From: Sphagnum magellanicum | Taxonomy: Eukaryota; Streptophyta; Sphagnopsida; Sphagnales; Sphagnaceae | Length of the DNA stretch: 64,000 bases | NCBI GenBank assembly: GCA_021904315.1 | Contig: CM038908.1 | Span: 24,014,501-24,078,500, forward strand | Reading direction: 5' to 3' | In this document: positions 1,912 to 29,710 of the stretch, one piece after another | Layout of the letters: every line of letters starts with the position of its first letter | How positions within the stretch are numbered: the first letter of the stretch is position 1 | Notes under the pieces: model-generated | Databases searched by the model: none | Told to the model about the DNA's origin: nothing | Seen by the model: the letters and a program-made list of their open reading frames with translations, nothing else | Position numbers and translations under genes: made by a program

Positions 1912-4900
1912 TCAGTGCGCCTTCTGTCTCCGTATCACCCATGTGTTCTGTAAGCACCCACAAGAAGAAAGCTTGTTAATAGCCTGCCAGAGACATTTTT
2001 CTGTTTGTCTACAACCACAACAGAATGTTGGCATTTCCAAAAAATTGACAAAACCAACCCAGACACATAATCTCTGAAAGCATTGGTGACTGGAGCAAAG
2101 ATCAAGGACTACTAACCAAAGGCTCGCCATCGCCTGGAGACATATCAGGTGAAAGGGCTGCTGCTGCATCGCCTTCAGAATCTCTGCTAGTAGTAGGCTT
2201 TTCTGTGCTGCTGTCGCCCACACTATGCTTGAAAACCTTCCCACTGGAGCCTGTCCTCCCTCCATTCCAAGCCACAAGCATCAAAAAAGAAATCCTCCAT
2301 TCCTGAGATTCCATGCATATGCAATTTTTTTCTTCTTTGGATGCCATCCAATTGAGAAAGTAAAGAATGAGTGGGTAGTCCCAAGAAGAAAGCATGATGA
2401 GTGGAAGTCACCTTTTGATGTTGAGGAACTCTGGACTTGCTTCCCTTTCATTTTCCCTCCTTTGGGTGCTTCACCATCGTCATCATTATCCTCATCAAAA
2501 TCGAACTCACTTGTGGTGTTCTTGACAGGAGTCTCTTTTGCCTTGAGAAATCTTGCCTCCGAATTGTTTGATTTACCCTCTTGAGAAACACGCTTCTTCC
2601 CAGATTTTGATGAGGATCGTTGTTTCCTGCATGTGTGGGTCAATTGTTACAACAATAAACCTTAAAACCCAAACTCACCAAGTTAAAATCAACTTGTAAT
2701 TACCCTTAAGTACTTGTCAAATGCACCAAGCCCAAATCCCAAGTCGCCATAGTCTTGAGTTTGAACTAGAATGACTTGGGTTGTCTAGAAGTCTATGTCT
2801 TTGAGAAGAAAAAAAGGTGCCAATAAAGAATGCAGCTTTTATTGCTGTCTATTGCAGATAACCAGAAAGAAGGGTAAATAGTGCAAGGAGGTAAAAGCAC
2901 ATACAACTGGTTGGATGGTCTGGGTACATCCTCTTGCTGTGCCAATGCCTTGGCCTTGTTGAGTTCCCGTCTGGAGAGATACAATGTACAGGAGCATTTG
3001 TGATAATACAATGTAAGCCAAGGATAAAACATACAGGTAATTCTGTCTCATGCATTTTTGGTTTCCACAATAGAACTTTTGGGGATATAATTTCCCCTAC
3101 ATTCAACATTCTCAGGCAAGTGTCATTGCAGAACTGTGATAGATCAAGAGATGCATATATAATCCATTCAAGAAAAATAACAGCATGTGTAAACAGAAAA
3201 TACTTTGCAGAATGTAGTAAAACAACTATCAACTCAAAGCCAATTCAGGGTTATGAATGGACAAGTGTGAAAAACAAGGTGCCAAGTGAGATTATGGTTA
3301 CAGTGGGACTGGAGCCCATGCAGGTTTTGATGATGTATCTTGTGGATTCTGTCAAGAAACACTCAACTGTCAGTAGTGTCTTCCAGTCTCTCATTCTGTT
3401 TTGAAAGTGGCAGCTTTATGATCACCAGACCTGCTGGACACTGGAAACATGGAGCAATTGCCAGGGACATATTACTACTGTGAGAGAATATGAGGGATAA
3501 GTACATGAGATCCAGTGAAGGCCATAATATTGGGAACGGAACAAAACCATCCATTGGACAAGAAGAACCCACCTTCACAAACCTCTGTTTCTTGGTTGTC
3601 AGCTGCCAACACTCCACACCCAGATCAAGAATTTCTTGCTCTCCATCGTCATATAGTACCTTAAAGTTGCAAAGTAACAAGACCAGATGAGACCATGAAA
3701 CAAGAGTTCCACTTCTGCTTATCTGTCTGCTCCCATGGGGCTTTGTTGCCAAAAACACAGCTGATTGTGATTAGACAACCCAATTGACAAATGTGTTCTG
3801 AATGAACATAGATTTAGGGTTCAGGGTTTAGCATAACAAAACTCAGACAAACACTTCAGAAAAGGTGAAACTTTTACAGAGGAAATCTGATCCATCATAC
3901 CTTGTGTCTCTTCTTTTTAGCATCGTATGAGATCACCTCCCCCTTGTAAAACCTGGCAGGTCATTCAGCCAGCATAAATGGTGTCAGCTCGATCACTCTT
4001 CTTTGATAAATGGGTGCCTGGAGACTAGGTTCCTTGTACAATCAGGAGGTTTTTCCAAGGTATTGACATGTTGAAGTCCAGAAGAGCAAAGCTTCTGGAG
4101 ACATGATAAGATGCTGACCATATTCTCTCTCACCCAGAGGTTCCTGTGCTGTACTGACAAATGAGAGCATGTCATTGAGGGCAAGTTGACCTGCTCAAGC
4201 AAGTAGAGATTCCCATTAAGATGGCAGTTGAAGATACTAACCTTCGATCGAGTGGCCACCAGACCTTGATGCCACAACCCACAAGATCCTCTTTTCCTTT
4301 GTTGGCTGCAATCTTCTTAGCAGGGCTCTACCCATTTCCAGGACCAAGGGAGGGGGAAAAAATGTCACGAAAACACTACTCCATGACCCAGACACAAATT
4401 TGCTTGGTGACATATGACATGCTTCATACCATCAGGAAAAGAGCAGCTGATTGTGAGCAAGTCTATACCCATAGATCAAGAAAAGAGCAACAGACCTTTT
4501 GTACACTAGAAGAAGCCTTTTCATCACTGCTGGACACCTCCCTGACAGCCTTGTTGATGGAGCCCTTGGTTCGCCCAGGTTTTGTTTTTGTTTTGGGGGT
4601 ATCGATGCTCTTCTCCTCATGCTTTTGTCCAGTTTTTACATCTATGCCAGCAGTAGATCTGATTTCCTTTTTCCCAGTGCTCTTGGGACGCCCAGGTTTG
4701 GACTTTGCAGTTTGGCCCTCCTCCTCCATTTGCTCCTTCTTTTCTCTGCCTTTCCCATCTCCACCAGTCTTACGTGTGATTGCCTTTTTGCCAGAGCTCT
4801 TGGGATGACCCTGGTTTTTGCGTGTTGTAGAGACACTTCCCTCCTGCTCATCGCCATTTCCATGAGATTCACCCATGATCTGTTTCTTGCCAGAGCCCTT

Positions 4901-7900
4901 TGGATGCCCTGGTTTTGACCTTGGAGCAAGGTTTTCCTCAATACCCATATCTCCATCCTTCTTATATCCATCCTTATCTTCATCCTTCTTCTTGCGACGA
5001 AAGACATATGTGGTAATAACCTTGTCAACTGCGCCCATTGGCTGCCCATAATTGGACTTGGGAGTGACATACATTTCCCACTTAGTTCCTTCATTCTTCA
5101 CATCTTTCTCAAACACTTCCGTAATAATTTCCTTCTTGTCAGAGCTCTCAATATGCCCCCTTCCTCGCTTGTGCTTTGGACCAAGCGCCTCTTCATGACT
5201 CTCACTGGCCTTTTCATCACCCACAGAGAGTTTCCTCTTATTCTTTGCAGCGGAGCCCTTTGGGCGCCCAGCTTTACGCTTGGCAGAGAGGTTTTCCACC
5301 ACATCCTTTTCCTCCCCCTCCTTGTCTGTTTCTGTTGGCATCTGTTCTACAACCTGATGATCCACACCCGCCGCCACTTCTTCTTCATCCTTGTCTTTAC
5401 TTGACACCTCCACAGCATGATTCTTGCTAGAATGCTCCAAAGATCCAGCCTCTTCAGCATCATTCCAGCTAGAATCTTCAGGAAGATGTTTACGCTTTGC
5501 AGGCTGGTTCTCCTCTTGGTCTTCTGCATCCTTTTCTGTGATCTCCTTCTCAAGCGCAGTTTTTCCATCCATCACATTTCTAGGTGTGCCCCAATCATGT
5601 GTTTTGCGAGACCCCTTGGAGGGCCCACGTTTGCGCTTTGTGGGAATGTGGTGCTTCTCTTGGTCCTTCTCGCCTTCCTCCCCTGTGGATAGTCTTTGAG
5701 GCGTCTCTACCCCAACCTTCTCGATGTTGTCTCCATCAATTCCTGGGTCCCTAGTTTGATCCTTTTCAACTTCAGGGGTGATGACCTTCTTAACATCCTG
5801 CTTGCCAAGGCTCTTGGGATGTCTGTGTTTCGGTTTCCTGCCTAAGCCCTTGGGTTGCCCACGTTTTCGCTTAGCAGAAAGATACCCCTGCTGCTGCTCA
5901 TCCATTCCCCCATCTTCATCTTTGCAATCGCCTGTATCTGCCTTCTGGGTTATTTCTTTTTCCTCCTCTTGCTCAGTTTCTCTGTCTTCTTGAGCATCAG
6001 GTTTCTGAGGAACTACTCCTCCATCACCTTCTTCCTCATCCTTGCCACCCTCATCTTCCTGTGTGTCAGGTTTCTGAGGAACTACTCCTCCATCGCCTTC
6101 TTCCTCATTCTTGCCATCCTCATCTTCCTGTGTGTCAGGTTTCTGAGGAACTACTCCTCCATCACCTTCTTCCTCATCCTTGCCATCCTCCTCATGGTCC
6201 ATCTTTGCTTGAGTCTCCTCCTGATCTTTAATTTCATCCTCAACCTGGTTCTTGACTCTGTCCTCCTCACGACCTTCTGATCTGCCCTCATGACTCATTC
6301 CTGCATCATGCTCTTTCTCACTCAGTCCTTTTTCCTCATCACCCACAACCTGGTCTTCATCATTGTTTGCTGCATCTGCATCCTGTTCCTCCAGTCCACC
6401 ACCCTCCTCTGTCCCCTCTGTGACAACCTTGTTTGTCTCACCTGCATCCCACTTTTCCAGTCTGCTTCCCTCAGTCCCCTCTGTGGTGACCTCATTTGTC
6501 TCATCTGCATCCTGCTTCTCCAGTCTGCTCCCCTCTGTGGCGACCTTATTTGTCTCATCTGCATCCTGCTTCTCCAGTCCACTCCCCTCTGTGGCAACCT
6601 TGTTTGTCTCATCTGCATCCTGCTTCTCCAGTCCGCTCCCCTCTGTGGTGACCTTGTTTGTCTCATCTGCATCCTGCTTTTCCAGTTTGCTCCCCTCAGT
6701 CCCCTCTGTGGTGATCTCATTTGTCTCATCTGCATCCTGCTTCTCCAGTCCGCTCCCCTCTGTGGTGACCTGGTTTGTCTCATCTGCATCCTGCTTCTCC
6801 AGTCCGTTCCCCTCAGTCCCCTCTGTGGTGACATTGTGTGTCTCATCTGCATCCTGCTTCTCCAGTCCACTCCCCTCAATCCCCTCTGTGGTGACCTTGT
6901 TTGTCTCATCTGCATCCTGCTTCTCCAGTCCGCTCCCCTCAGTCCCCTCTGTGGTGACATTGTGTGTCTCATCTGCATCCTGCTTCTCCAGTCCACTCCC
7001 CTCAATCCCCTCTGTGGTGACCTTGTTTGTCTCATCTGCATCCTGCTTCTCCAGTCTGCTCCCCTCAGTCCCCTCTGTGACAACCTTGTTTGTCTCATCT
7101 GCATCCTGCTTCTCCAGTCTGCTCCCCTCAGTCCCCTCTGTGATGACCTTGCTTGTCTCATCTGCATCCTGCTTCTCCAGGCCGCTCCCCTCAGTCCCCT
7201 CTGTGGCAACCTTGTTTGTCTCATCTGCATCTTGCTCCTCCGGTCCACCACCCTCCTTAGTCACCTCAGCAGCAACCTCCTTGTGGCCACTTTCTACAGT
7301 CTCCTGGTGTTTGTCTGCTTTCTCATCTTCAGTGTGGTTGAATTTTCCATCTTCGTCAAACATAGTGCCATGCTCCTTCAGGTCCAAGTCCTCCTCTTGT
7401 TGATGACTTTGGTTCTCCTCACTTTCACCCTTCTCAGGGATTTGTAAGCCACCCGCTTCCTGGTCTTGGAAGTCATTTCCCTTGGCGGTGTCATCATCTA
7501 TTACAAGATCTTTTTCCACTGCATCCCCTTCATGGTTCTTGGCCAGCACCCCATTATTGTTTCTGTCATCTATTGCATTATCCTCTGCATTCTTTTCCAC
7601 TTTGTCTATGTCCTGATCTTTCAACCCATCCTTTGCAGCAAGCTCCCTCTTTTCCTTCACACCATCACCTATCACTTGCATCTCCTCAACTTCTGGCAAC
7701 CCATTTTTCTCACAGTCTCTCACTTCCGTCTCCTCATCTTCTGGCAACTCATCTTTCTCAAAGTTTCTCACTTCCTCTTCAGGATCCTTTATGTTGTCAC
7801 CCGCCAAAGGTTCAATCCCATCTTTTTCTTCTTCCTTCATTCCATTCTGCTCATTGGGTTTTTGTACTACATCCACCACTGCTGCCTCCTTGATCTTTGG

Positions 7901-10900
7901 TTCATCATTCTCCTGGTTCTTTGGTTCCACCACCACATCCTCCAGCACTTCTTCAACATCCTCAATCTCTGGCACTCTTACATGATGAACCTGTGATTTG
8001 TCTGGTTCATGATCTTGCATCCCACCACCCTCATGGTCCTCCTGGACAACATCCTCCTCCATCTTGCTGCCGTCATTCACCTCCTCATCCTGAATGACCG
8101 CATCCTCCTCCTTGTGCATGTTCATTCCATCTGCCTCTGGACTCTTCACATGGTCAGGATCCTCACCTCCCTTCACTCCATCCTTTTCAGCTTCCTCAGC
8201 AACCTTGCTTTGGCCATCCTTCTTGTTGGATCCTTTGGGTCGCCCACGTTTGCGCTTCAAAGGAAGTCCCTCATCGTGCTGCTCTGTTTCTTCTCCATGC
8301 ATGTCATGAACTGCAATTGGAATTTTCTTTGGACCGATCTGGCCAACACTTTTTATCCTACTGGAATTAGGCAGCTTCTTGAAGGAGCCTTTTGGGCGGC
8401 CACGCTTACGCTTCACAAGGACAGTTTCTTCTTGTTCTTCCTGTTTTTTTTCTTCAGTCTCCACTATGTCCTTTTCTGCCAATCTGGGCTCCTCCATACC
8501 CACAGTGCCTTTTGCCAATATATCATTGTTGTGCTTGCCCTTGTTGTGGTTCACCTCCTCATCTATTGCTTCCTCTTCATCTTCTTCTTCAGACAACACT
8601 TGTGCATCACTGAACACTTGTCCTTGCCTTTGGCTTTGTGGACTAGATTGCTGACATGAGGAAATATGAAATCAGTAATGATCATTTTCCCATGAGATCC
8701 CAAATGAGAAGAGAAAAAGCTTGTTTTTCTGAATCTCAAATGTGGGTCAGAGACATATATATATACCTCATATGTTGCAGCTGAGGAGAGTCCTGAATCT
8801 GCAGTCATAGTAATTTCAGCAACTGCAGATTTGGTGTGCTTGCAGTCTTCCTTGATACAGAGCTCTTCAGATGTTGACATCAATTTGCTGCCAGACACAA
8901 AGCAACATCAACAACCATACTATCATCAGTTAGATCAACAAAACTGGCCCACCCAACTGGCAGTGAGATGATTGATTTCTTTCACAGAATGCTTGGACAG
9001 ATGGCAGGTGGATCACAATGCAAATCACTTCACAATTTATCTCATGTATGCTCTTATCAGCTCTCTGAACCAGCGGCAGCATCACTTTCCTCACTGGGAA
9101 ATGTTTGTGACTCAACTCATACATACCTGCTAACTTCAGACCCAGCTGCATGTGCATAGGAAGAGCTTCCAGGATTCTTAGAGATGACATCTAGCACACT
9201 GTTTCTGATGAATTCCTCATCATCCTTGGACAAGAGATGCAGGTTCTCCTTCACATCATCTATAAGTAGAGGGCAATAGGCAGCAACTTCCTGTAAGGAA
9301 ATGGGAGTTAATATAAACTCTTCAGCAAAGGTTTCACATAGCAACGTAAGTACCAGGACTCCAGTTAGCATTTCTGGCAGTTCACTGATCCCCCTATCAA
9401 CTTCATATAAGTTGGCATAACCCAAAACCCTAAATGCTCCAAAGTCTTTTGAGGATTCCTAATCTACAAAACTAGGTCCAATTCATCCCAAATCAACACA
9501 TGTTAAACCCTAAAGCCTAGCCATGCAAGAACCTACAAAACCAACCATTTTAGCATTACCCATCAAAGCAAATGTCACATGTCTGACAGAGATGGACACC
9601 TCCAGGTATTATCTAATGGACCCTAAACCCTAAACCCTAAACCCTACTACTATAACATCTGTCAGGCTATCTGGAAAAGACAGACAAAATTTCAACTAGT
9701 GATGGGCACCAACCGAAAGCAGATCAATAGTTGATGTCATTTGTTCTTTCCTGGCTGAATTTCTGTAGACAAGAATCTGCTGTATAAAAGCATGAGCATG
9801 CTCCCTGCTGAACAGTGAATATGCGCACTTTGTGGTTAGGATTTTCAAGAAGTCGTGCTGCGGGTGATTCTTTCCTATCTTCTTCAACAGCTCCGCCTGC
9901 ACTCAATCAGACAGTAACAATACTAAAGGGTTTCATCATTTGATATTTTGTAAGCCTCTGTAAAAGGTTAGATTCTTCATTCTCTGCATTGTCTCACCAC
10001 AACAAAGTATGTATAACAGCAGCAGCACTGGTTTTGCTTTTATCCTTACCACCACTTCCCACTGTGGGTTTTGGTGTTAAATTGAGTGAAGATAGGAGAA
10101 TGGCAGGGAGGGGAGCTTTTAGTACTGCTACAGGAGCCTCAAGAGCTGAATTATATGATAAGGAAAAACGTACAGAAGCTGCACGTGCATGAGCAATACT
10201 GGTGCTCGGATCCAGCAGAATAGAAAGCTCCTTGAAAACACCGTCATTGCCCATTTTGTGAAGCTCCCACAGATCTTCCTTTGCTTTGGGTGGATCCACA
10301 AACTGATCAGAAATTACAGTGAAGCTGCTCTCAATCTTCCTCTGGAAATCCAGCATCTCTTTCTCCTGCAAAATGCATAACTTTGTCAAGGGCTGCTGCT
10401 GCTTCTTATGTACAAACAAATGGGTTACAAAACTGCCAAACACACAAACTGCCATAATTTCCAAAGCACAAGATCAGAAGTTCTTTGTTTTCAGCATCAC
10501 AGAGCAACTTTGAGCTGATTGATGATCCTGACTGTTTTTGAGGATTATATGAGCAAGGTGTCCATGCCAAACCACAGATACCACCATGGCAGACAAAAGA
10601 AAAGATCAACTATGATGATATGTGGACAGACTGTAGAATTTGTGAAGTATCAGAGAGGTGTATAATCTTATGACGAAGAGCTAAGTTGCTGCACCTCAGT
10701 TGTCTGTCGCACAGAGAGGTAAGCAAGCATCTCCAACTGCAATCTGCACGACCCCACCCACACTTGCATCCAGATAAACATCCTCTTCAACCCTCCTTGT
10801 CTCTCCTCCTCTCCTTTTTTTTCTTGATGCAATTGTACAATTTCTTGCCTGAATTATGAAGCTCATAGATAATTACAGAGACAGGTCCTTAGTATTCCTT

Positions 10901-13900
10901 TACTTTTGTGACTTCCTCTCTTTTCAGATTCTGAAAGGATGCAGTGAGATAAAAATTAAACCCATCCAAAACAGTAATATCCTGGAGGCGCACTGGAAGA
11001 ACCCAGAAAAGTCCTCACTTTTGCTTCTGTGACAAAATGTGCCGAAGAGCAATTTTATCCTGCTCATCAAATGTGGAGAAAAAGGCTACCCAGTGCTTTG
11101 CCTGCTCCTCCACAGGGAGCAGCTCTGCGTCAAAAAGCTCCTCACAAAGCACAATCTCCATGTCCTGTGCTCTGCCCAATCAGGCCTAACTTTTTCAGTA
11201 CATTCAAAACCCTGTTGGAGAGAATAATTCTTCTGATATATCACTCTGATGAAGGTGGGGGGGAAAAAAAAAGAATCAAGCAAGAAGACCCAACAAAACA
11301 GTCACTATGGTATACAAGATCTTCAGAAGAAACTGATGGCAACAGAGAAAATTTCAGAGTAAATTCCATTGATGGGTACGTGTCCAGATGTGTGTGTTTG
11401 TGATAAGTGAAGAAGCAGTCCCAAGGAAAGTAACTTGCATTTCAGTTCATTGGGAAAAGCAAAAAAAAAACTCACATGAAATCTGCAGAACCTTTTCCAC
11501 AGCAGGAGTGAAAAATTTGACTTGGTATCCACTCAAACTGATCATGGCCAGCCTCAAATCCTTCAAAGAATTTTGTGCAGTAGCTCCTATAAACACCTGC
11601 CAACTTATGTAGAGTTTCTATTCTGATTGAAACCTGCATCATGTTCAGATTCATCACCGCAAATACCAGGTGCATGATGAGTCCTTTGTATGGGAAGACA
11701 AAAGAAACATTCAAATAGTAGTAGTAATAGAAGAAGAAGAAGAAAACCTAAAGGTGTTCATTGTTTTCTTCAAGCTTAACATCTACTGGGACAGCAGCAG
11801 CAGCACAAGTATAAGATTAATGGGCAGTTGATAAAACCAGCTGATTTTACTGATGGGTAGACGTGATGGGCCACCAACCTTGGTATCCTGAAGACAATCA
11901 GCAACTTTATGTAGGATACCAGGGGGACTTAAGTTCAGATTCACTCTTGCAAAATTGCAAATGGCATTTATTGCTGTAATGCGCACTCCATCATCGAAGC
12001 AACAGAGCTGCTCACCAAGTGCAACTATTCATTCCACCCCACAACTGCACTTCATTCAGGTTCAGGACTTGAAGGCAAAAAAAAGACAGAGTTTGGTTCT
12101 TACATACAAAACACCTAATAGGAAGGACATAGAATCTCTTGATGAACATGATAAATGTCTGCTACAATTTTGAGCCAAAGCCTTTCATGACCTACTGAGA
12201 GAAAGAAAGAGCCATATTGACAGCCTCACCGAGAATTTCAGATGTCTCCACAGTGGATGATTTCGTTGTCTCTAGATACACTTTTGCACAGTTCACAGCA
12301 GCTACTCGAACATCAACATCTTCATCATTCAGCCTCTTCAAAAACTCTGAGAAAAGCTGCTGATATTCTGGGGGCACTTGCCGACCTGGCACAGAAAACA
12401 TTCGCCCTAGGAGAATTGTCGCCTTCAAACGTATTGGAACCTGATTGGACTGGAAGAACTCACCCAACCCCACATTTCCAGAAATGCTTGATTTTCAAAC
12501 ACAACCTAAGCCACCCAACTTTCATTGCCTTCCATAATTTCTGGTGATGAGAATATCCCATTCTGCGACTATCAAAAAGAGACCAAAAGGATACGGAAGC
12601 AAACTAGACTGAATCTGGTGCAAACAAGGTAGTAGTCCTTGGCAGTCACAAGAAACTATATCAAGACTCCATTTTCAAGTATGTTGGGTGGGTTGACAAT
12701 TGTGTGAGCTTCCAGAAAAGGAGGGAGACGTGCATACCACAAGCTGCTCTTTAAGATATGGTAGGACCCCCTGTACCATCTGTGGTGCACAGCAATAAAG
12801 CTCATAGATGAGCTCATGATAGTCCTTTTTGAGCGCAGTTGGCAAATCTTTTCCATCTGACATTGCAAGAATAAAAAATTGCCGCATGTATGGCTCCAGA
12901 ATCTCTGCACTCTCCTCCACAACCGCCACTGCCAGCATGTGTCCAGCTTGTGATACACCCTACCCCCAAAACACAGTTTTGCTTTATAGAAATGTAATGA
13001 GAAAATTTGTTTTAAGACCTCTCTTTTCAATAGTTTTTCAAAGGACCCAACTGCCAGAAAGACCTTCTGAACTTAGTACCCTAGGAATCTACAATCTACA
13101 GTATGAGCAGGAGGACTCAAAGACATTGATGAGCTGCAAAGTGCGGCAAACCAACTTGGACCACCCAACTGAAGAGGAGGAAGTTACATTGAAAGTGAGG
13201 ACCATATAAACCAAATTTCTATAATGAGTTTGGGTCTTTTCTTTTCTTTATACCTCTTTCTGGCTCAGAAGATTGTTTAGGATGACCTCCAAGATCTGTG
13301 ATGAAACCTCCTCGCCCTCGTTGATGACCAGCGACAAGACATTCCGCATAGCCAGAAACACAGGTTCTGGATGCTTGTCACTGCATTTTGCAGCAAGATA
13401 TATTGTCTCAGGTACCTAAGTTGAGAACTTTCTTGTCCTTGATGAGAGAGCATGCGAGCATGAACCTTACTAAATAGAAGGGAATAAAAACAAAAACTTG
13501 CCCCCCCCACAAAACATCTTCCTACAACAAACCCATTCGCCAATTGTTTGAGAGCCTGCCTGAAGGTACCTAGTTATAAGATTTTTTTTCTTCTAACATT
13601 ACCTTACACTTGTTCTAGTGTCTGATGAAAACTATGAGGGTGAGAACTCATTGTTACCTAATGGTAGTGAAGAAGATCTCAAACATTTCGGTAATCAGAT
13701 CATCACAATCGAGATCCAGCATGACGACGCATGACCGCACCTTTGCAACCGTCTCGAGAATATTCACCCTGCTGGAAAATGAAGGACTGTGCACGTCATC
13801 CAACCCTCTGAAAATGCCCACAATCAACTGGAAAATTTCCTGCACAACAGAACAACAACAACCACTTTTTTAGTATGTGAGAAAGAAACTGCAAGAGAGA

Positions 13901-14987
13901 GAGAGAGTGTGTGTTTGGTATTGACCAGAATAAAAACCCATTGCCACAATGAAGAAGACAAATAACTACCTTCAAGCAATCATCACTGTAAGGTGCATCA
14001 GGTGCAACAATTCTCATGATTTCACTGATACAGAGTGCCACGAGCACCCCAACATCCTTATCTTTATGACCCAACAGAGTCGGGTCCACAAGCGCATCTG
14101 AACATCCCTTCATAGCAAAGATTGTGCTCGGTGGCGGTGACTGCTCCACATCTTCAAGCATGCTTGCAGCTTGCTGTGTACATCATAAAGTTCAAAAAAT
14201 CATCAGCAAATAGAGCAACCCCACTGATGCACTGTACAGCAAATTTGGGATGAAGAAAAGTCAAAACATGCTGGTTTGGCTCAGCAAAATAGTTTGGCCC
14301 AGCATTTTTGCACATGGTGCTGAGGCAGCTGCCAAAAAGGTGCAGCAAAGCCAAACACCTGCTGCTGCTGAATGGCTAGACTGTCTGATTGGTCCAGGTG
14401 GGTTGCTATTATGTAGTAGCCTCTCAGCCTTTTGCAGTTTTATGGGTGTGGTTGGGAAAAAAGAAAAAACTAATCTTGGATGTGAGCACTACTGTTGCAG
14501 GGCCACATGCTGAGCACATGGGTGGAGATGCAATTAGGGAAAGAAAGGGAAAAATAGAATAGTAAGGTGATAGATCATTCATAGCTGCCAATCAGGTTTT
14601 TTTAATCTCTTCAACACCTACATTCTTTCAAACCAATTACAATTCAATGCTCAAGGAAAGAAATCAATTCGAAATCTGCAACTACAAAACCTTTCCCAAC
14701 CAGCCAGGGCAACGACCAGCAGGCAGTGGGAATCACAGGAACCCTAGAAATGGAAACAACAAAGAGCAGCAGCTTTGGAGCAGCATTAGAGACAGAAAGA
14801 ATTTGGTTATTGCGGTGAGAAAAGTAGTGTGCTCTGGAAAGGAAAATTGTGTTCTCTCCAAGAAAGAAAGAAGAAAAGATTTTGGGAGTATTACCGGTAA
14901 GAGGTTCATGAGATCTTCTTTGGATTGTGCATTGGCGAGTTTCTTGCCGATGTCTGTCAAGTCCAACTCCCTTTGCTTCGACATCAT
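1912..14987 (-). CDS. PDS5: PDS5 sister chromatid cohesion protein, long HEAT form with a giant AT-hook/acidic exon and Tudor domain
   Basis: Twenty-one exons on the minus strand: 14987-14895, 14173-13970, 13839-13658, 13380-13254, 12959-12738, 12449-12230, 12024-11879, 11633-11476, 11171-11019, 10743-10695, 10365-10174, 9896-9714, 9290-9127, 8887-8767, 8650-4496, 4327-4242, 3952-3901, 3659-3583, 2626-2412, 2250-2117, 1947-1912. All phases agree; the total of 6,969 nt gives 2,322 residues. Residues 1-738 are HEAT repeats that follow plant PDS5A/B in order (EQSPPPST, APDAPYSDD, VAKVRSCVVMLD, FDDGVRITAI, HWVAFFSTFDEQDK, LLDPSTSIAHA). The C-terminal half of the usual HEAT array is absent. Residues 739-2123 come from one exon rich in E, D and K, with RGRPKGS-type AT-hooks and tandem repeats. 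A Tudor domain follows (IKVWWPLDRR, FYKGEVISYDAKKKRHK, VLYDDGEQEILDL), then a basic/acidic tail. PDS5 binds cohesin and controls cohesion in the nucleus; this role is inferred from the family. The start may be the second ATG at 14,984, or an in-frame codon further upstream. Confidence 0.93.
5990..6196 (-). repeat. Second in-frame repeat in the PDS5 exon, 69 bp x 3
   Basis: Three nearly identical 23-residue units of the form KDEEEGDGGVVPQKPDTQED lie in tandem, differing by K/N, D/G and T/A changes. The unit length is a multiple of three, so the frame is kept. It lies C-terminal to the 21-residue array in the same exon and extends the acidic linker. Confidence 0.88.
6385..7255 (-). repeat. In-frame minisatellite, 63/54-bp units, 14-15 copies (21/18-residue protein repeat)
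   Basis: The protein repeat has the form LEKQDADETNKVTTEGTEGSG. About 14-15 units can be counted by DADET or its variants. Most are 63 bp (21 residues); at least four lack a TEG step and are 54 bp (18 residues), so frame is always kept. Two neighbouring pairs share the same variants (TEGIEGSGL with THNV), showing a two-unit duplication. The edge units are diverged (DAGET, DADAAN), as expected for an array growing from its centre. Confidence 0.92.
9621..9645. repeat. Short interstitial telomere-type repeat (CCCTAAA)
   Basis: About three and a half copies of the plant telomere unit CCCTAAA lie inside the PDS5 intron between the exons at 9,290 and 9,714. The tract is too short to be a chromosome end. 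It could be a relic of break repair or a telo-box-like element. Confidence 0.8.
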
Positions 14988-24942: not shown

Positions 24943-26031
24943 ATGGCGCGGGCTCGACTTGCAGTCCATGGCGGATCAGGTTCCTATTATCCGCTTGGTT
25001 TCTGCGTCTTCCTCTTCTGCTTCGCATTGTTGCTACAAGCCGGTTTCGCTGACGGTGCGTCGTCTGTCTTCCTCTTCGTCCTGATGATTGCATTCTTCTT
25101 CCAATCTCTTTCTTGGATGCTGTGTGAAAGAAAAATCGTAGCTCCTCCTCTTTGCGTTTTCCTCCTCCAACAGTACTACTCAAGCAGAAAACACGGAAAG
25201 ACAGACATACATCCCTTGACTGCTAAATTTGGCCGTTTACTGTAGGCATTCAGCTTTGTCAAACTGGAAGCTCCTGATCTGATTGCAATCTTCTACCGCG
25301 TGATGAGAGAGATGCACAGTAATGTGTGTCAGAAGTCAAGCAGATGTTGGAGATTTTCTCATAGACATGGAGAAAAAAGTTTGTTCTTGTGTGTGTTGTT
25401 GTTTGCCCTCGATGCGCTACTGTTTCTCTGTCTCTCTGTTCTCGGTTGGAGTATTTTCCTTAATTTCCGGGAGTACTGTGAACGGATGCTGGCAGTGAAT
25501 CAGGACTTGCTGGACCAGATCAACAAGTATCGCATTGCGTTGGACTTGCCAGCGCTAACGGAGAATAAGGGAGCCGCCTGTGTCGCACAGGGGTTGGCGA
25601 ACTACTACAAGGGAAAAGCTTGCACGAACTCGACGGAAGGGGATGTGTTGGATGGTTCGGAGCCTGAAAACCTGCCGGCTGTGTTACCAACGTGCAACTT
25701 GCAGCCAGACAATGTCGAGAACGGCTTCATTGCACCCGATTGTGTGCCGACGGGTACGAGCCCAGCAGATGCGTCCCTGGTAGCTTTTCAAAACTACACA
25801 GAGTTTTATGGCTACTCTGAACAGCTGAACAATACTCAGTACACTTCCGCTGGAGTTGGATCCGTGGACAACGAATGGTTTGTTCTGGTTCTTGCCACCA
25901 ACGAAAGTGGTGGCAACTACGTCTCCCAGAACCTTGATCCCAGTGCAGCAGCTTCTCCGAGTCATCAGGGTATCGCTCTTACTCTCACTGCCACTTTAGT
26001 AGCTGCCCTTGCTATGTGTTTGTTCCTGTAA
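24943..26031 (+). CDS. Plant GPI-anchored protein of the At5g19250/At3g06035 type
   Basis: Two exons: 24943-25054 and 25496-26031, 215 residues. Exon 1 encodes a signal peptide (basic start, then LGFCVFLFCFALLLQAG). The donor is G/GTGCGT, and the acceptor GGCAG at 25,495 fits the phase. The body begins VNQDLLDQINKYRIALDLP and resembles the conserved plant family of small GPI-anchored, cysteine-containing surface proteins (NKYR.AL.LP.LT.N, YKGKACTNST, and a later IAPDCVP). The C-terminus is a hydrophobic tail (IALTLTATLVAALAMCLFL) after a small-residue stretch (DPSAAASPS), as required for GPI attachment. The site of action is the outer plasma membrane; the molecular function is unknown in the family. 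An alternative start at 25,300 would read the T-rich intron as coding and is disfavoured. Confidence 0.8.
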
Positions 26032-27472: not shown

Positions 27473-29710
27473 CTACCTCACACGCACTAGCCAATAAAAC
27501 AAGGGAAATTGGGCAACCCCCATGAGAAGTAAAAGATAGTGATGTCGGGTAGAATCTCGATCGTAACTTCGAGCCTCTGCAAACAATAACCTCTTCATTG
27601 TCCTCACCAGGAAATTTGCCATGCACAAACTTGTCCAAGGCAATGCGAGGTAGTAGGCATAACTCCACACCATAGAGGCTAAAACGGAAGCAGACAACCC
27701 AATAAATGAATAGCCTCCATAGGCAACCACGTCTAGAAGTGGAGCATCACTGCTACCTAATGCAAATAGGGCAGATTTTAGCAGAATTGTTTCCACTGTC
27801 CATCCAAGTACAGCCTTTGTGAATAGCCCACTGATCACATCAGGTGTGAATCTGTCATGACATAGACATAACAGAAACCCAAGCATGTACAAGTAAGTTT
27901 CAAAGGAAACCAAATTGAACAAATCATCCTGAATCTTTGAAGCGAAAGTGCCACCAGAAAGATGTTCAACATGAGATCCATATGCGATGCTACAACATCT
28001 GTTGTGGAGCTGGGAGACTGAATTTGTGACAAGGACGAAAAGGTCTTTGCAATAACTTACTTGCCAGCAATCCCCAGAGTAAGGCCACAGAGAACAATGT
28101 AGGTGCTGAATGCCATAAGTGGCAGGTAAAGGTCTGGAGCATTTATGTCATGGCGAGGGGGCTTATATTTCAAGCCCCCAGCTACCTGCTCCGGTATTCG
28201 GGTCCAAGGGCCCTGTGGTTAAGCAGGTATGAGCATGTGATGTCACCAGCATGGGCATCTTCAAACAAATATATTTCTGATCTGTGGAATTCTACTTCAT
28301 GGACAAAGAAATGTGGAGACAATAAATAGTAAAAGAATTGAACCTTATGAAGAAATGGAAAGAGCACCACTTTGAGCTTGTTCTGGACATACTGGTCATT
28401 GACTTGAAAATAGTACTGCACGTCATGAGTTGCAAAATATCTGCTCACCTATAAACCCAAAACCACACTTCCCCTAAACTCAGTTCTACAAAGACAAGAA
28501 TACAAATTGGAATTGTGCATCCAAAATGGTAACCAAGTCAGATTCTCTAATTTGCCAATCTCAATATTCACCATTCCGGATTCATACTACCACCACACAG
28601 TTCCATTGCACACTACACTTTATGGCCAGGAAGCAGGCAACTTCTGTTTTGAAAGCAAGCCACCATTACAACAACCATCAGTGTGCAGGGATGGCATATG
28701 GCACCGAAGCTTGCCAATGCTTTTTGCTCTTTTGCTTTTGAGCATGGAATAAAAAAGCCACATAGTTTTGTGAACTGGGTGGGCATCACATACATTGCTT
28801 TGAACATATTCTTTGCTGTTGCCAAGATATGTCCCAAGAATGCCAGAGCTTGCCCCATATAAGACATTGTTGAAGGGGTTGCTTACACCTGGGCCCCCAG
28901 TTTGTGGTAGTTGCATGCCAGGCTGTGGCCCATATCGAGGATCATATCCACCTCCCACTCCAGGAAAGCCCTGCCATCATCAGACTCCAAGAAAACCGTA
29001 TCCTGTTTCATAAATTCCCCTACCTTACACCTGAATTATATTGCTTGTGGATATCTGGAGAATCAGTCCTTCACCTACTTTCTCAAGAAGAAATGGACAG
29101 AGTAGTACACTACAAGCCTAGGATCATGCAGCAATCACTCTCAAGCAGGGTCAAAAACAGGATGTCCATGATGAATGAATGCCATGCACATGGCAGCTCC
29201 ACAGTTCAGATCCTCAACCCCTTTGAAACACCAAAACTGTAAATGATTTTCTCACTGCAGAACCTAAACCTGACGGAGCTCAATCGGAGGGCAATTGTCT
29301 TCAAGAACTAACACAGACTCTTGACATCTCTAGATTTGTGCAGTAATCAATCAATCTCTACTGAATAACAAGGACCCAACAGTGACCCAAAAAATTAGGG
29401 TTTTCTGCAATGTTCCACCAAACCCTAACCCTATTCTTCCGTCCAAAAAAATTTCCCAATACTTACTTACACCAGAACCAAAAATCTCATCAAGATCACA
29501 AGATAAAGAAATCTTCAAATGAAAAAAAGGGGCGAACAAGAAATCCGAACCCGAAGAAAATCCCTTCATCAACCACATGGATCATCCCATCCATGACTGT
29601 CCGTTCCGAAATAGACCATGAATGATGATGAAGAAGAAGAAGAAGAAGACGCTGAGTATAGTAGTACCGCGGGTATTACAAACCTGGGACGGAGCTTGTT
29701 GCCACGCCAT
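27473..29710 (-). CDS. YIF1: YIF1 family protein, ER-Golgi membrane trafficking
   Basis: Five minus-strand exons: 29710-29684, 28970-28794, 28448-28344, 28212-28061, 27851-27473; 279 residues, phases all agree. The N-terminus is Pro/Gly-rich ([15 protein letters not shown]), then [42 protein letters not shown] and [11 protein letters not shown], all hallmarks of YIF1. The C-terminal half has several membrane segments ([65 protein letters not shown]). YIF1 pairs with YIP1 and acts in ER-to-Golgi vesicle transport in the family. The first exon codes for only nine residues and is followed by a 713-bp intron. The third acceptor (TTTATAG/GTGAGC) was chosen over a nearby AG because it restores phase and the N-V-S-R-Y-F junction. 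Confidence 0.93.

Follow-up and report, generated by a model that had tools for sequence, protein, structure and literature searches.

We analysed a 64,000-nucleotide stretch of the Sphagnum magellanicum genome (the window; contig C2, CM038908.1, positions 24,014,501-24,078,500), whose minus strand carries a gene for PDS5. This protein regulates cohesin, the ring that keeps chromosome copies together, and determines whether the ring is retained on DNA or released, a task shared between its N- and C-terminal parts. Our gene model comprises 23 exons (E1-E23) and encodes 2,359 residues with no internal stop, a single terminal stop and 22 introns that are all GT-AG (Table 1). Exon borders were picked by eye, guided by homology and GT-AG; the open frame and the matching exons of a paralog on contig C1 (see below) provide independent support. 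E1-E14 code for 738 residues of HEAT sequence. E14, which includes ELCIKEDCKHTKSAVAEIT, ends in phase 0 and is followed by an intron of 116 base pairs (bp), after which E15 (4,155 bp, or 1,385 codons) joins in frame and E16-E23 carry the frame to the stop. The HEAT part matched the human PDS5B structure 5HDT with an expectation value (E) of 2.5e-54; at this value and those given below for PF20168 and the Tudor domain, chance is excluded as the source of the PDS5 matches.

Table 1. Exons and repeats of the window PDS5 gene (window positions), and the PDS5 fragments read elsewhere in the genome (contig positions)
Feature	Position	Strand	Content
E1	14895..14987	-	start ATGATG, residues 1-31
E2	13970..14173	-	HEAT; APDAP loop, residues 88-92, about 14005..13991
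E3	13658..13839	-	HEAT
E4	13254..13380	-	HEAT
E5	12738..12959	-	HEAT
E6	12230..12449	-	HEAT
E7	11879..12024	-	HEAT, spine region (human PDS5B alignment)
E8	11476..11633	-	HEAT, spine region (human PDS5B alignment)
E9	11019..11171	-	HEAT, spine region (human PDS5B alignment)
E10	10695..10743	-	HEAT
E11	10174..10365	-	HEAT
E12	9714..9896	-	HEAT
E13	9127..9290	-	HEAT
E14	8767..8887	-	final HEAT piece, profile position 699; HEAT array ends here
E15	4496..8650	-	acidic 1,385-codon exon, AT-hook-like cores
63-bp tandem repeat, 14.6 copies, within E15	6363..7246	-	
69-bp tandem repeat, 2.8 copies, within E15	5997..6190	-	
E16	4242..4315	-	Tudor part 1
E17	3901..3952	-	Tudor part 2
E18	3573..3659	-	Tudor part 3
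E19	3302..3348	-	tail
E20	2905..2970	-	tail
E21	2412..2626	-	tail
E22	2117..2250	-	tail
E23	1912..1947	-	last exon and stop, NTWVIRRQKAH-stop; conserved in the C1 copy (NTWVIQRQKAR-stop)
PDS5 fragment	C6:8293362-8301625		
PDS5 fragment	C10:9226836-9227693		
PDS5 fragment	C16:18115314-18115965		
PDS5 fragment	C8:25285996-25286685		
PDS5 fragment	C2:790818-791330		
PDS5 fragment	C14:19262507-19262686		

A PDS5 whose HEAT array stops early

We scored the spliced 738-residue HEAT part against the Pfam family PF20168 (PDS5) and found that residues 25-726 match profile positions 2-699 of 1,053 (552.6 bits, E 2.3e-165), which places the protein in the family at its gathering cut-off of 27 bits. E14 extends 12 residues past the last matched position and then gives way to E15, and no C-terminal HEAT match appeared in our reading of the gene. 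Approximate sequences of the long plant form of PDS5 matched the profile at positions 3-699 (706 residues), 711-1053 (401 residues) and 710-1053 (356 residues). Because the long plant form matches the profile to position 1,053 and the window gene stops at 699, the predicted window protein is a PDS5 without the last third of the canonical HEAT array. That third, as represented by the approximate plant sequence, aligns with residues 753-1070 of the human PDS5B 5HDT chain and holds the C-terminal HEAT hook (profile about 711-1053) that typifies the long PDS5A/B class and is missing from the window gene. A sequence-only reading of this stretch had placed a gene at 1912-14987, had joined its HEAT segment in phase to a 1,385-codon exon, and had expected several hundred further HEAT residues in long plant PDS5; our 23-exon model agrees with the outer coordinates, the phase-0 end of E14 and in-frame E15 bear out the join, and the profile end points of 699 and 1,053 match the predicted deficit.

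The N-terminal APDAP region and the spine region (the kleisin-binding middle HEATs) align to human PDS5B over residues 18-623, the spine being assigned at the level of the region. The APDAP loop, reported to bind WAPL, Sororin and Haspin motifs (PMC11148194, PMC10656103), is intact in the window copy and in the C1 copy. At the other end of the protein, a Tudor domain encoded by three exons matches the PDS5C/RDM15 structure 7DE9 (E 7.5e-19). We mapped by eye the cage and contact residues listed for RDM15 (PMC8184781): all three members of the aromatic cage (W616, Y623 and Y641 in RDM15 numbering) and the polar partners D643 and E647 are kept, and D645 and Q654 are each replaced by E. Judged by the aromatic cage, the window Tudor is a putative histone reader of the plant PDS5 type, which reads histone H3 monomethylated at lysine 4 (H3K4me1).

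Between the HEATs and the Tudor lies E15, with 26.7% D+E, 15.3% K+R and a net charge of -17 to -32 per 100 residues across residues 201-900. A loose pattern picks out nine AT-hook-like cores in this exon, four of them with GRPK. Its 63-bp repeat, of the type LEKQDADETNKVTTEG, does not occur in the alignment with the C1 paralog; as a coding minisatellite, it may differ between individuals.

A paralog with the same exon plan

We identified a second gene of 1,916 codons on the minus strand of C1 (6,643,056-6,629,997), with an open frame, the same 23 exons as the window gene and identical phases at all 22 junctions. Its E14-E15 intron is 227 bp long; at 116 and 227 bp, these introns are too short to hold the missing HEAT exons in either gene, and hidden exons between E14 and E15 of the window gene were ruled out. 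The C1 E15 measures 2,916 bp and has five AT-hook-like cores, three with GRPK, the size gap to the window copy being due largely to the latter's tandem repeat. The common layout and exon structure identify an older shared architecture rather than a peculiarity of one locus, and the hook-less layout predates the C1/C2 duplication.

Substitution rates between the two genes were estimated by the NG86 method. The HEAT exons E1-E13 share 71.7% identity over 695 residues, with a nonsynonymous rate (dN) of 0.161 and a synonymous rate (dS) of 0.528; E15 shares 50% identity over 955 residues (dN 0.354, dS 0.717), and E1-E15 jointly give a dS of 0.624. The resulting dN/dS ratios, about 0.30 for the HEAT exons and 0.49 for E15, indicate that both genes are under purifying selection. 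Conservation is poor in E14 taken alone (27.6% identity over 29 aligned residues), as might be expected if a repeat that is now terminal has become exposed.

For Sphagnum, two genome duplications with Ks peaks of 0.406 and 0.643 have been described, with cited ages of 189-247 and 102-122 million years, and chromosomes 1, 2, 5 and 8 are assigned to one ancestral set (PMC9946827). Our dS values of 0.528 for the HEAT exons and 0.624 for E1-E15 lie close to these peaks. By dS and chromosome grouping alone, the C1/C2 genes are plausibly a genome-duplication pair, although our dS and the published Ks come from different methods and the grouping assumes that contig numbers equal chromosome numbers. 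Local synteny of the pair was not found: paralogs of the neighbouring YIF1 gene occur on C1, C2 and C5, and the copy on C1, at 27.6 megabases (Mb), lies 21 Mb from the C1 PDS5. Separately, about 300 bp of intron 1 of the window gene (14231-14531) is 77% like C1:6638610-6638898, which lies between E8 and E9 of the C1 gene; similarity between different introns perhaps marks a small transposable element.

Genome-wide search for other PDS5 sequences

We searched the whole assembly (438,994,042 bp in 31 contigs), scoring best candidates only, with approximate N- and C-terminal plant queries that had been checked against PF20168. For the N-terminal query, the 439 Mb yielded 29 rows with E no higher than 1, of which 18 lie in the two genes, 10 in fragments and 1 elsewhere. 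It recovered 9 of the 14 HEAT exons of each gene, including 7 of the window gene's at E up to 0.01, at identities down to 29%. The first C-terminal query (profile 711-1053) gave a single chance-level match in the whole assembly, on C4 (E 3.5, 31% identity), which we judged to be chance from its surrounding frames, and the second (profile 710-1053) gave zero matches across the same assembly. With neither query above chance, we rejected a split gene whose C-terminal HEATs lie elsewhere. Eight stretches tested at E up to 0.05 likewise held no C-terminal HEAT match. A whole-genome PF20168 scan at E up to 10 yielded 27 rows, none past profile position 561, and carries little weight by itself because E12-E14 of the two known genes went undetected too. 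The check for a full-length HEAT paralog that the sequence-only reading had proposed thus detected none within its limits: a full-length PDS5 is undetected in this assembly, its absence being unproven.

PDS5 fragments lie at 12 loci when the one at C14:19.26 Mb is added, some of them represented by a single weak row. Of the 39 rows obtained with a query joined from fragments, 16 fall in the two genes and the other 23 are spread over 11 further loci. The six loci that we read (Table 1) are all decayed: stops interrupt conserved blocks on C10, C6 and C14, some exons have been lost or merged with others, and several copies have non-exon sequence in common. The fragments therefore appear to derive from another PDS5, now dead, whose genomic copies became dispersed. 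Over 447 common columns, the joined fragments scored 0.519 and 0.537 to the two moss genes and 0.459 to an approximate Arabidopsis sequence, compared with 0.749 between the window and C1 genes. Since the fragments are nearer to the moss genes, we dropped their assignment to the canonical long class and claim only another PDS5. C20, which would be the small sex chromosome if contigs are numbered as the chromosomes are, carries one pair of fragment rows.

Genome-wide, a Tudor query produced 26 rows, of which the two genes account for 6, C7 for 3, C19 for 1 and other sites for 16. At C7:337719-338595, a PDS5-type Tudor with three exons and good splice sites stands alone; C19:1188804-1188866 is part of a Tudor of the C7 type, and the two loci share 841 bp at 95% identity. 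We rejected a third PDS5 on C7: at E up to 1, N-terminal HEAT sequence was absent from the 16 kilobases upstream of this Tudor, where the C-terminal search gave just two chance-level matches (E 0.63 and 0.83). Of the 16 other sites, the four examined held weak Tudor matches or nothing, with PDS5 HEAT sequence absent from their frames.

A putative chromatin-tethered PDS5 without a hook

The moss gene resembles long PDS5A/B (Arabidopsis At5g47690 and At1g77600) in its HEAT exons to profile position 699 and in its APDAP-type loop, and differs in lacking profile 711-1053, that is, the hook and C-terminal domain, and in that its HEATs are followed at once by the giant acidic AT-hook exon. With short PDS5C-E (PDS5C is RDM15, At4g31880) it has in common an H3K4me1-type Tudor and a truncated HEAT array. 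Its HEAT match, however, reaches residue 726 and its HEAT part about 726-738 residues, whereas the PDS5C array presumably stops near residue 250-270. The sequence-only reading had described a hybrid of long-form HEATs with a tail like that of PDS5C-E. Layout and truncation stand, although a second gene of the same plan means that they are not peculiar to this locus; the likeness to the short forms holds for the Tudor, compared with 7DE9, and seems to fail for HEAT length. Because long PDS5A has been reported to carry a C-terminal Tudor too (PMC11519323), this domain alone is not a short-class marker. Human PDS5B (5HDT) and yeast Pds5 (5F0N/5F0O; 5FRP) are like the moss protein in their N-terminal APDAP and spine regions, but the human and Lachancea chains go on into a C-terminal third that the moss protein lacks. 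The 703-residue chain of 5FRP is, we assume, an engineered fragment solved with Scc1 that ends near the natural end point of the moss protein.

By sequence the window protein is a PDS5 that lacks the long-class hook and seems to differ in HEAT length from the short class; it is best regarded as a plant PDS5 of new architecture. Our limited literature search found no paper on moss PDS5 architecture; a survey table marks PDS5 as present in every species column (PMC5371999). The comparison suggests that plant PDS5 HEAT arrays were cut at more than one place with the Tudor end kept, which bears on the origin of the H3K4me1-reading PDS5C-E.

We read the window gene as a functional, hook-less PDS5 that is tethered to chromatin by its tail and is one of two paralogs of the same plan, and give this a probability of roughly 0.7. 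The protein would bind kleisin along its spine and WAPL via the APDAP loop. Without the hook, closure over kleisin would be lost, and without the C-terminal domain so would the trough in which other studies predict docking of Wapl, Esco1 and Sororin. AT-hooks, together with methyl-lysine recognition by the Tudor, might replace part of the lost grip by tethering the protein to chromatin; PDS5 would then act as an adaptor, anchored on chromatin, through which cohesin is released or stabilised. In Lachancea Pds5, kleisin runs along the spine and is wedged beneath the C-terminal hook; budding yeast survives lysine substitutions at two hook residues, and a lysine at a spine residue greatly reduces proliferation and causes temperature-sensitive lethality (PMC4793087). 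AlphaFold predictions for yeast and vertebrates place the Wapl/Esco/Sororin trough and Esco1 docking in the PDS5 C-terminal domain, and a WAPL-SA-PDS5 ternary contact on the N-terminal domain is predicted for Arabidopsis too (PMC10656103). A naturally occurring PDS5 that retains the APDAP loop and spine region without the hook and C-terminal docking trough would offer a separation of functions made by evolution, in a genome that still contains WAPL domain matches.

A wider proposal is that the whole cohesin cycle of this moss lineage depends on PDS5 proteins that lack the hook and are tethered to chromatin, a full-length version having been lost and only fragments of another PDS5 being left; we propose this tentatively, at somewhat worse than even odds. 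The hook would in that case be dispensable so long as AT-hooks and a Tudor keep PDS5 on chromatin. In favour of the functional, tethered PDS5, partial matches to the WAPL domain were found as one row each at C9:3192661-3192849 and C12:13897705-13897893. These rows resemble a retained duplicate pair, and chromosomes 6, 7, 9 and 12 are assigned to one ancestral set (PMC9946827).

Several points weigh against a functional, tethered PDS5 without a hook or against the loss of the full-length form. The hook tip is described as conserved in all eukaryotes (PMC4793087), so that easy dispensability is doubtful. Kleisin contacts, DNA binding by the AT-hooks and tethering are deduced from anatomy, the two replaced Tudor contacts are unlike PDS5C, and the gene model comes from genomic sequence alone. 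The N-terminal query missed E1, E4, E10, E13 and E14 of both genes and is only a partial control for the C-terminal queries, which were approximate and whose empty result is uninformative without a genome known to match. The C-terminal part also appears less conserved, with 58 bits over 323 residues between the approximate plant sequence and the human one, compared with 188 bits over 606 residues for the N-terminal part of a different pair, moss and human.

Compatible with a tethered, functional PDS5 is the idea, which we consider unlikely though worth keeping in view, that this layout is the ancestral plan of land plants or bryophytes, ordinary in mosses but unreported. The layout's age relative to the C1/C2 duplication favours it, but the C-terminal third is present in seed-plant PDS5A/B and in human and Lachancea PDS5, which makes its loss the more parsimonious change. 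We give a lower probability, nearer one chance in a handful, to a full-length PDS5 that is missing from the assembly or too diverged, with the window gene as an extra paralog for chromatin tasks like Arabidopsis PDS5C-E. Search sensitivity drops toward the C-terminus, as the missed E13 and E14 show, the second C-terminal query had no matching control genome, and the 12 fragment loci and lone C7 Tudor trio imply that a further PDS5 gene once existed. Against this, the fragment-derived query should reveal an intact parent by its N-terminal exons, yet its 23 non-gene rows contain no long stop-free exon series (six of 12 loci read), and the two C-terminal queries together gave one chance-level match.

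An error in the gene model, by which HEAT and AT-hook exons of two neighbouring genes were joined or HEAT exons overlooked, is conceivable with exon ends chosen by eye from genomic sequence but highly improbable, given that a paralog with 72% identical HEATs repeats the order of the exons, their phases and the in-frame join, that the E14-E15 intron is short and that the eight stretches are free of C-terminal HEAT matches. Equally improbable is a pseudogene in decay whose C-terminal HEAT exons have been lost: E14 diverges between the copies and PDS5 pseudogene fragments do occur in the genome, but 2,359 codons without stop or frameshift, 22 GT-AG introns and the dN/dS ratios all speak against decay.

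Elsewhere in the window, we found a piece of a YIF1 gene at 27473-28147 on the minus strand (E 1.1e-21), with copies on C5 and C1, and an open frame at 25246-26031 on the plus strand whose weak match to a CAP domain falls short of the curated cut-off.

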